Assembly: GCF_026000375.1 (NCBI RefSeq)
Contig: NZ_AP026708.1
Coordinates: forward strand, 1,304,501-1,368,500
Length of the DNA: 64,000 nucleotides
Direction of reading: 5' to 3'
Origin: Pseudodesulfovibrio portus
Lineage (GTDB): Bacteria > Desulfobacterota > Desulfovibrionia > Desulfovibrionales > Desulfovibrionaceae
Of the stretch, positions 1,750 through 3,033 are shown piece by piece. Below the pieces are notes generated by a model, which did not search any database, had not been told where the DNA came from, and was given only the letters and a program-made list of their open reading frames with translations. Positions within the stretch are counted from its first letter, which is position 1. Each line of letters begins with the position of its first letter. The position numbers and the translations under genes were made by a program.

Positions 1750-1800
1750 CATTCATGGGAGCATTCCGGCACAATCCCGCATCTTCCCCCAAAAAACCCT

Positions 1801-1851
1801 TTGCATGAATGTAAATAGTTAGTATTATCATTTACATAGATTTTATCTATG
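1801..1851 (+). promoter_or_regulatory. Promoter and overlapping palindromic operators of the peroxiredoxin gene
   Basis: TTGCAT (1801-1806), a 16-base spacer and TATTAT (1823-1828) form a sigma-70-like promoter. An inverted repeat ATGTAAAT-N13-ATTTACAT (1809-1837) brackets the -10 box. A second perfect palindrome, CATAGAT-TTT-ATCTATG (1835-1851), covers the expected start point. Two nested palindromes over a promoter suggest repression, for instance by a peroxide sensor, but the regulator cannot be named from sequence. Confidence 0.45.
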
Positions 1852-1887
1852 CCTGTGTATTCATATTTTCAATCAATGGAGACTGCC

Positions 1888-2610
1888 ATGCCCACTGAGC
1901 AAAATCCCGCATGCGAGCGCCCGGCCCCCAAGGTCGCAAAAGTTCCGCAGCCCGAAGCGGAAGCCCAGTCCCAAACCCCGGAAAAACAAGGAGGCCCCAT
2001 GATTCGCGTTGGCCAAAAAGCCCCCGATTTCACTGCCGCCGCATACGTGAACGGCGGTTTCGGCTCCGTGACCCTGTCCGAATACCTCGGAAAGTGGGTC
2101 GTGCTCTGCTTCTACCCCGGCGACTTCACCTTTGTCTGAGCAACCGAAATCTCTGCGGTCGCAGAGAAGCACGACGAATTCGAGAAGCTCGGCGTCCAGG
2201 TCCTGTCCATGTCCACGGACTCCATGTTCGTGCACAAGATGTGGGAGGAACATGAACTTTCCAAGATGGTCACGGCAGGGAAGATTCCCTTCCCCATGCT
2301 GTCCGATGGCGGCGGCGCCGTGGGCTCGGTCTACGGAATCTATGACGACGCCTCGGGCGTGGACGTGCGCGGCCGGTTCATCATCGATCCCGACGGAGTG
2401 GTCCAGGCCTTCGAGGTCCTGACCCCGCCGGTCGGTCGCAACGTGTCCGAGAGCCTGCGCCAGATCCAGGCCTTCCAGCTGGTGCGCGAGTCCAAGGGCG
2501 CACAGGCCACACCGTCCGGATGGAAACCCGGCAAGGCCGTGCTCAACCCCGGCCCCGGCCTGGTGGGCAGGGTATGGGAGGAATGGAAGGTCCAGCAGGC
2601 CTTCGACTAG
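1888..2610 (+). CDS. prxU: Selenocysteine-containing peroxiredoxin (TGA at 2137 read as Sec)
   Basis: AhpC/Prx-family peroxidase reducing H2O2 or organic peroxides in the cytoplasm. The frame is interrupted once, by TGA 2137-2139, exactly where the peroxidatic cysteine belongs: PGDFTFV-TGA-ATEIS instead of FTFVCPTE. The same frame continues with normal Prx sequence to 2610, so the codon is read as selenocysteine. A hairpin suited to SelB lies directly downstream. The start is either ATG 1888 (GGAG six bases before, 240 residues, Pro/Glu-rich lead) or ATG 1999 behind a perfect AAGGAGG, which puts Sec at residue 47 as in ordinary Prx. The usual resolving cysteine (VCP motif) is replaced by Thr ([10 protein letters not shown]), so the enzyme looks one-Cys-like. 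A plain nonsense mutation is the less likely alternative. Confidence 0.85.
2137..2167 (+). promoter_or_regulatory. Bacterial SECIS-like element after the UGA codon
   Basis: Seventeen bases after the TGA a seven-base-pair stem TCTCTGC/GCAGAGA (2150-2156 with 2161-2167) closes a GGTC loop. Bacterial SECIS elements are coding-region hairpins with an apical loop 16-37 bases after UGA and a G among the first loop bases; this one fits both rules. SelB would bind it to insert selenocysteine. Confidence 0.7.
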
Positions 2611-2630: not shown

Positions 2631-2666
2631 AGGGCCCTCTGCTATGTTCGGAGGGCCTTTTTTCAT
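2631..2666 (+). terminator. Rho-independent terminator after peroxiredoxin
   Basis: GGCCCTC (2633-2639) pairs with GAGGGCC (2651-2657), followed by six to seven T. It lies 22 bases after the stop at 2610, which also supports 2610 as the true gene end. Confidence 0.75.
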
Positions 2667-2691: not shown

Positions 2692-3033
2692 ATGTACTGC
2701 CTGTATGCCTTCAACGGCGAAATGATGTGTTTCGTCCACGTACTCCTGAATGCGCTGGACATGCATGACAAGGGGACCGGGTGCGTCATCGTCTTCGAGG
2801 GCGCGTCGGTCAAACTGATCCCGGAACTGGAGAGCGGCAAATCCCCCTTCTCGCCCCTGTATTTCAAGGCCAGGGAAGCCGGGCTCATCGACGGCGCGTG
2901 CAAGGCCTGCTCGGCCAAGATGGGCGTGCTCGAAGCGGTCGAGGCATCCGGGCTGGACCTGCTCGACGACATGTCCGGCCACCCGTCCATGTCCTCGTAC
3001 ATGGTCCGGGGATACAGCATCATCACCTTCTAG
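2692..3033 (+). CDS. DsrE-like small cytoplasmic protein
   Basis: A 113-residue protein starting at ATG 2692, with GGAG five bases upstream; an in-frame ATG at 2644 lies inside the preceding terminator and is rejected. The pattern of a short beta start (MYCLYAFNGEMMCFVHVLLNA), a VIVFEGASVKL strand and a C-terminal GYSIITF strand resembles DsrE/YchN-fold sulfur-relay proteins. Two cysteines sit close together (ACKACSAK, about residues 79-82), suitable for sulfur or metal binding. It has its own downstream terminator. Family assignment is tentative. Confidence 0.6.
   Translation: MYCLYAFNGEMMCFVHVLLNALDMHDKGTGCVIVFEGASVKLIPELESGKSPFSPLYFKAREAGLIDGACKACSAKMGVLEAVEASGLDLLDDMSGHPSMSSYMVRGYSIITF

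Follow-up and report, generated by a model that had tools for sequence, protein, structure and literature searches.

The window analyzed here, a 64 000-nucleotide stretch of Pseudodesulfovibrio portus DNA, contains a gene that, judging by its sequence, encodes a genuine selenocysteine (Sec) peroxiredoxin of the known family PrxU. From comparison with its relatives, we propose that this protein is made in two forms, a tailed one of 240 amino acids and a tailless one of 203 amino acids, which differ by one redox cysteine. The overall reading, namely, a Sec-containing PrxU in which a hairpin would aid the reading of TGA, thiols would resolve the catalytic cycle and two starts would give two forms, is assigned a probability of about 0.7. 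What is new is the conservation of a second start, together with the cysteine that this start would remove, for which the sequence evidence is strong; the N-terminal tail, the tail cysteine, the second start and the conserved core cysteine C74 are all absent from an earlier note on this gene. The gene points to selenium-dependent peroxide defense in anaerobes and, if the second start is used, a conserved bacterial internal initiation would decide whether an antioxidant enzyme has a redox cysteine.

The gene and its surrounding signals are as follows.

1888–2610, forward strand: prxU long reading frame, 240 amino acids, Sec at codon 84, stop codon TAG

2137–2139, forward strand: TGA Sec codon 84 at the peroxidatic position, from frame reading and relatives

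1800–1828, forward strand: weak sigma-70-like promoter match, TTTGCA-17-TATTAT (9/12)

2631–2659, forward strand: terminator-like stem-loop followed by a T-run, 3' of prxU, from a sequence scan

Within 1888–2610, the only in-frame stops are codon 84 (TGA) and codon 241 (TAG), and the former lies in the context GDFTFV-TGA-ATE, with U in place of the peroxidatic Cys; the frame, the coordinates and the FTFV-TGA-ATE motif of an intact peroxiredoxin with a single TGA are those that the earlier note had given. As that note expected of an automatic gene finder, the list of open reading frames cuts prxU in two (1849–2139 and 2209–2610), and the annotation is now secured for a gene that plain ORF calling splits. 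The openness of the frame is weak evidence, given that 65 of 2000 base shuffles are as open (two stops at most), and the decisive evidence is homology. With the TGA read as Sec and passed on to the profiles as Cys, the product scores 407.2 bits in the comparison with PrxU that had been suggested as a check (NCBIfam equivalog NF040737, curated cut-off 270), and the alignment covers residues 8–236 of the protein and positions 3–232 of the profile, so that the model includes the tail. The Pfam domain AhpC-TSA is matched at 130.7 bits, the AhpC model TIGR03137 at 175 bits, under its cut-off of 272, and 1-cysPrx_C only weakly (22.9 bits against 21.1); C9 and C74 are candidate resolving cysteines. 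A thioredoxin-dependent peroxidase is what the name of NF040737 says, this name being the sole source for the activity. We infer that Sec is inserted at codon 84.

PrxU is reportedly the Sec peroxiredoxin of Eubacterium acidaminophilum described by Sohling et al. in 2001. The window protein is the same in kind as the PrxU of NF040737, with Sec at the peroxidatic position and the TxxU motif. In the parts of the literature consulted, Sec peroxiredoxins with this motif are already listed (PMC13188914, PMC1088965) and a Sec peroxiredoxin also appears in an earlier publication (PMC1794560); together with the NCBIfam equivalog, the papers with the TxxU motif uphold the view that selenium is known at this position in PrxU-type enzymes. 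The Clostridium sticklandii peroxiredoxin CLOST_2406, with Sec at position 84 of 240 amino acids (PMC3091704, Table 2, the part of that source used), equals the window gene in length and Sec position, a likeness that comes from the annotation and leaves the sequences aside. The passages of the PrxU literature consulted mention neither the tail cysteine nor a conserved second start, and a search by the titles and beginnings of abstracts, which mostly did not extend to subscription papers, found nothing on a second start in PrxU.

The TGA is retained with few exceptions. It occupies the same codon in all 110 loci first compared (L025–L134; 104 distinct), among them the copy in the window itself (L036) and L055, which is 88% identical to that copy. 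Across the family, 41 of 288 genomes exceed the PrxU cut-off, and all 43 matches have exactly one TGA; within the genus (the window genome and 35 others), PrxU was counted by eye in 17 of 36 genomes. At least 144 of the 394 genomes in a phylum sample and 13 of the 291 in a sample of Clostridia, every one of the latter with TGA, are above the cut-off. The best 80 of 436 relatives from a contig scan belong, by record title, to Desulfovibrionaceae, Desulfobacteraceae and other Deltaproteobacteria, and also to Spirochaetes, KSB1, Cloacimonadota, Anaerolineae and Clostridia, most of these 80 being metagenome bins with possibly wrong labels. The scan patterns did not contain the TGA, but two of them overlapped C74 and the last part of the linker, and the genes found by profile alone were therefore recounted for these features. 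In the larger set, 182 of 188 loci gave a readable protein (the six unreadable ones being L139, L178, L182, L192, L197 and L201; L142, a Cys peroxiredoxin of the ordinary kind, had been excluded beforehand), and the 165 distinct proteins comprise 134 tailed ones (133 Sec, 1 Cys) and 31 with Sec or Cys and without a recognized tail; Cys forms occur among the tailless relatives that are more distant. These relatives share ancestry, so that the counts do not represent independent events. L170, counted as tailless, resembles a tailed gene that has been interrupted upstream. L173, the only gene with TGC among the 134, retains both tail and internal start, and its genome also carries a Sec copy, L204.

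The machinery for Sec insertion is complete in the single 3.40 Mb contig that makes up the genome searched. The tRNA-Sec scores 83.6 bits (gathering score 47) and has the anticodon TCA according to ARAGORN, that is, tRNA-Sec(UCA); selA (613 bits, cut-off 268), selB (399.8 bits, cut-off 242) and selD (339 bits, cut-off 125) were all found, and the absence of these genes, which the earlier note would have counted against the Sec reading, does not occur. The selD gene of this genome (L018, G000:C1:2044643-2045572) itself has one in-frame TGA.

Immediately 3' of the TGA lies a predicted hairpin that qualifies as a SECIS-like element.

2150–2167, forward strand: SECIS-like hairpin TCTCTGCGGTCGCAGAGA with apical GU, from structure and covariation

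Counted from the T of TGA, the hairpin covers nucleotides 14–31, with 8 pairs, a placement that fits a bacterial SECIS. The stretch of 54 bases that begins at the TGA aligns gaplessly across 80 sequences, one from the window and 79 from the set of 80 named loci, L093 being left out; 98.9% of the 616 cells from the 77 distinct sequences are paired, compared with only 38–71% in controls with slid partners, and the apical GU is invariant across these 77. Four of the eight pairs are altered on both sides, in 93 cells in total; the covariation score was reached by none of 500 shuffles, and the number of doubly changed pairs was matched by 11 of 500. RNAalifold, run on 133 sequences with no knowledge of the site, recovers the same hairpin. 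Folding of nucleotides 0–45 is stronger than under synonymous redrawing in 95% of the 133 genes (mean z -1.1); for the overlapping segment 3–48 the mean z is -0.96, and segments elsewhere reach at most -0.72. At the gathering score, Rfam gives no match within the window and, to our knowledge, it holds no general family for the bacterial SECIS. The E. coli fdhF SECIS is a hairpin directly 3' of UGA with GU in the apical loop, and the prxU hairpin resembles it in the position after UGA and in the apical GU, stem sequences aside. SelB and tRNA-Sec would read the TGA at 2137–2139 as Sec with the aid of this hairpin.

A sequencing error or a pseudogene with a chance TGA, to which the earlier note would have turned if relatives had TGC or TGT at this codon, has a negligible probability. 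The codon is TGA in 110 of 110 first loci and in all but one (L173) of the 134 distinct tailed proteins, and the full Sec machinery and the covarying hairpin speak against it as well; together these observations refute it, unless all records share an error, and no point in its favor was found in the analysis.

The part of the protein that precedes the peroxiredoxin core, and the core itself, carry the two cysteines of interest.

1912–1914, forward strand: codon of the tail cysteine C9, in the motif C-E-R-P in the window

2107–2109, forward strand: codon of C74, which lies ten residues ahead of Sec and is Cys in all 134 distinct tailed proteins

The PrxU tail, here defined by a Cys criterion, mostly has the motif GC-x-RP, in many relatives GCARPTGG, and Pro stands three residues past the tail Cys in 128 of 130 cases; in many relatives, GCARPTGGPVGE lies about eight codons past the start and is followed by a low-complexity linker and then by the core. 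In an AlphaFold2 model built from 42 sequences, residues 9–11 and 18–34 have pLDDT values under 50, and the core blocks 79–97, so that the linker is predicted to be disordered. The pN/pS ratio of the tail is 0.33 (4669 pairs), compared with 0.14–0.32 in three parts of the core (0.32 in the C-terminal one), a rough ratio because pS is near saturation (0.7). By this rough measure, the tail is coding and is under protein-level constraint.

Two other ideas about the tail found no support. An encapsulin loading peptide was rejected because PF04454 has no matches in the genome of P. portus, the control search being positive in 3 of 14 cases. A DNA pattern for GCARPTGG yielded 55 matches in 388 genomes, 49 in PrxU and 6 elsewhere (by eye), compared with 5 for the reversed control, and hence there is no sign in these genomes of other carriers of the motif.

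Apart from the peroxidatic residue, C74 is the only core cysteine conserved in the tailed proteins; it is kept in 70 of the 70 tailed proteins found by profile alone and sits in strand 70–76 of the predicted model. The typical 2-Cys peroxiredoxins (AhpC, Prx1-4, plant PrxA) share the fold with the window protein, the nearest structures being 5zte, 1n8j and 7kj1 (38–42% identity), but they have a C-terminal resolving Cys where the window protein has Thr (TPSGW). This cysteine (CPA/S-x-W) is missing in 127 of the 134 tailed proteins. A strict either/or of tail and C-terminal cysteine does not hold: both occur in 7 of the 134 tailed proteins, and there are tailless Sec proteins that lack the two. 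In Clostridia, six such proteins (L221–L226) have a single cysteine, ten residues before Sec, and with neither a tail nor a C-terminal cysteine in them, the tail is not the sole route to resolution. In the proposed cycle, Sec84 would attack H2O2 or an organic hydroperoxide to yield a selenenic acid and, with the C-terminal resolving cysteine missing, C74, tail C9 or both would close the cycle, followed by an external reductant.

A quick tree of 115 rows, including 56 of the 134 tailed proteins, suggests that the tail arose when the C-terminal cysteine was lost. Most of the Cys-type tailless peroxiredoxins fall outside, the tailless Sec proteins with the C-terminal cysteine branch next, and the tailed proteins lie innermost together with three tailless groups lacking that cysteine; two of these groups have Tyr or Phe at the position ten residues before Sec, and the clostridial one keeps Cys. 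L188 and L200, two Cys rows that lack the C-terminal cysteine, are early branches, and support at several of the key forks is only 81–93. The three tail changes on the tree include an error, the tailed row L217 being scored as tailless by the pattern.

Normal gene signals on both sides, as described in the earlier note, are present, and those on the start side turn out to be double.

1878–1881, forward strand: Shine-Dalgarno GGAG of the long start ATG 1888, match length 4

1988–1994, forward strand: internal Shine-Dalgarno AAGGAGG before ATG 1999, 7 bases, conserved in relatives

1999–2610, forward strand: prxU short reading frame from the internal ATG, 203 amino acids, Sec at codon 47

Two starts, each preceded by a Shine-Dalgarno (SD) match, are conserved across the sequences compared. 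The long start has an SD match of at least 5 bases in 96 of 104 relatives, and the internal ATG is present in 99 of 104 distinct loci, with an SD match of at least 5 bases in 95 of these 99, compared with 57 of 578 other core ATGs. The linker often ends in KEV, KEE or QGG before Met, which amounts to AAGGAGG-like DNA before ATG; the internal match averages 6.72 bases, compared with 4.31 when the codons are redrawn synonymously. In the larger set, scored by the best start within nine codons with an SD of at least 5 bases, the internal start with its SD is found in 121 of 129 cytosolic Sec genes (a strong site is missing in the other 8), in the single Cys gene and in none of the four exported genes, the background, obtained by applying this procedure to other places in the cores, being 185 of 2341 windows; the exported group was recognized after the sequences had been seen, and its contrast with the cytosolic genes is post hoc. 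Of the 65 cytosolic Sec genes that the profile alone recovered, 59 have the internal start with SD, and clostridial tailed PrxU have an internal SD of at least 5 bases at 6 of 7 loci (L213 is the gene of L076 again). Among the 127 of 130 cytosolic genes with an internal ATG and a scorable long start, the two starts are matched in SD strength (6.63 and 6.65 bases, -11.2 and -11.3 kcal/mol), and in 112 both SDs reach at least 5 bases. The four exported genes (L140, L141, L205 and L209) have signal-peptide-like N-termini (by eye) before the tail, along with the tail cysteine and Sec, and appear to be exported.

Two in-frame starts on the mRNA would yield a 240-amino-acid form with the cysteine tail and a 203-amino-acid form without it, the latter with C74 only; the second start would be that of the tailless ancestors, and it is probably the older one, given that tailless relatives seem to have their start at this same point. 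The 4-base SD at the window's long start suggests that the long form may be minor in P. portus. Bacterial genes with two in-frame starts, in which internal initiation gives two proteins from one frame, have reportedly been described (N-terminal proteoforms, PMC11005335). PrxU differs from other two-start genes in that the starts are conserved across the Desulfovibrio kin, Clostridia and others, the product is a selenoprotein and the forms differ in a conserved cysteine.

Production of a single protein from the long start, with the internal AAGGAGG-ATG being a relic of the tailless ancestor or a pausing signal, is unlikely, even though an SD-like stretch could pause ribosomes instead of starting them, tailless relatives appear on reading to start at the same position, so that the site is probably inherited, the NF040737 model takes in the tail and the C. 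sticklandii protein is annotated at the full 240 amino acids with Sec 84 (PMC3091704, in the part consulted). A relic would be expected to decay across such divergence, yet the internal SD exceeds its redrawn counterparts and equals that of the first start, and the copies with signal peptides lack the internal site (0 of 4). Even less probable is the converse, that ATG 1999 is the true start, the upstream part a leader and only the 203-amino-acid form matters. It is true that, in the window, the SD of the internal start is longer than that of the long one (7 bases against 4), and the PrxU of E. acidaminophilum is said to have about 203 amino acids with Sec at position 47, a size that agrees with this possibility. 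Against it, the tail reads through in frame, with no stop, in 134 distinct genes, its motif is kept in the protein more than in the codons, as the pN/pS indicates, the long start has its own conserved SD and, in the copies with signal peptides, the tail follows the signal.

The reading with both forms can be extended, tentatively and at somewhat less than even odds, to two selenoenzymes. The long form would resolve its selenenic acid with its own flexible N-terminal thiol that replaces the C-terminal one, the short form would need C74 or an outside thiol, and initiation could set peroxidase or relay behavior; under the same proposal, the exported copies would have dropped the second start because a form made without the signal would end up in the wrong place. 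From these comparisons of sequences we infer translation from both starts, redox roles for C9 and for C74 and the involvement of an external reductant.

Upstream of prxU, the TATTAT of the promoter match is also found, by eye, in the close relatives L055, L042, L049 and L050. Two inverted repeats lie at 1809–1851, ATGTAAAT/ATTTACAT and CATAGAT/ATCTATG; a conserved palindromic operator was rejected as CATAGAT-TTT-ATCTATG is absent from the 17 other upstream stretches compared. Terminator-like sites number 2 in the stretch, compared with 1.3 expected from shuffling.

The recurrent neighbors of prxU, named by eye from the sequences within 3 kb at 80 named loci, look like oxidative-stress genes: a CoA-disulfide-reductase-like flavoprotein (17 loci), a PNPOx-like protein (7), a flavodiiron-like protein (5), two groups of rubrerythrin- or ferritin-like proteins (4 and 3), a Fur/PerR-like regulator (3) and a catalase-peroxidase-like (KatG) protein (one). 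In the window, two small YeeE/YedE-like membrane proteins (Pfam Sulf_transp) are encoded upstream at 10–773; they match NCBIfam thiosulfate and selenium transporter models under the cut-off, and the first may overrun the window start. The protein at 1024–1695 has a VPLPA-CTERM/PEP-CTERM-like C-terminus, also under the cut-off. Downstream, 2692–3033 encodes a small DsrE-like protein (by eye) with no Pfam or NCBIfam match, and DsrE-like proteins occur within about 450 bases of prxU at 4 of the 80 named loci, L109, L130 and L133 among them. L090, L093, L100 and L130 have, just 3' of prxU, a gene for a lipoprotein-like protein of peroxiredoxin/BCP-like type, in which an in-frame TGA appears to occupy the peroxidatic position (YPKDDT-x2-U); judged by this motif, the gene likely encodes a second selenoprotein next to prxU in Smithella, Syntrophaceae and a deltaproteobacterial bin.
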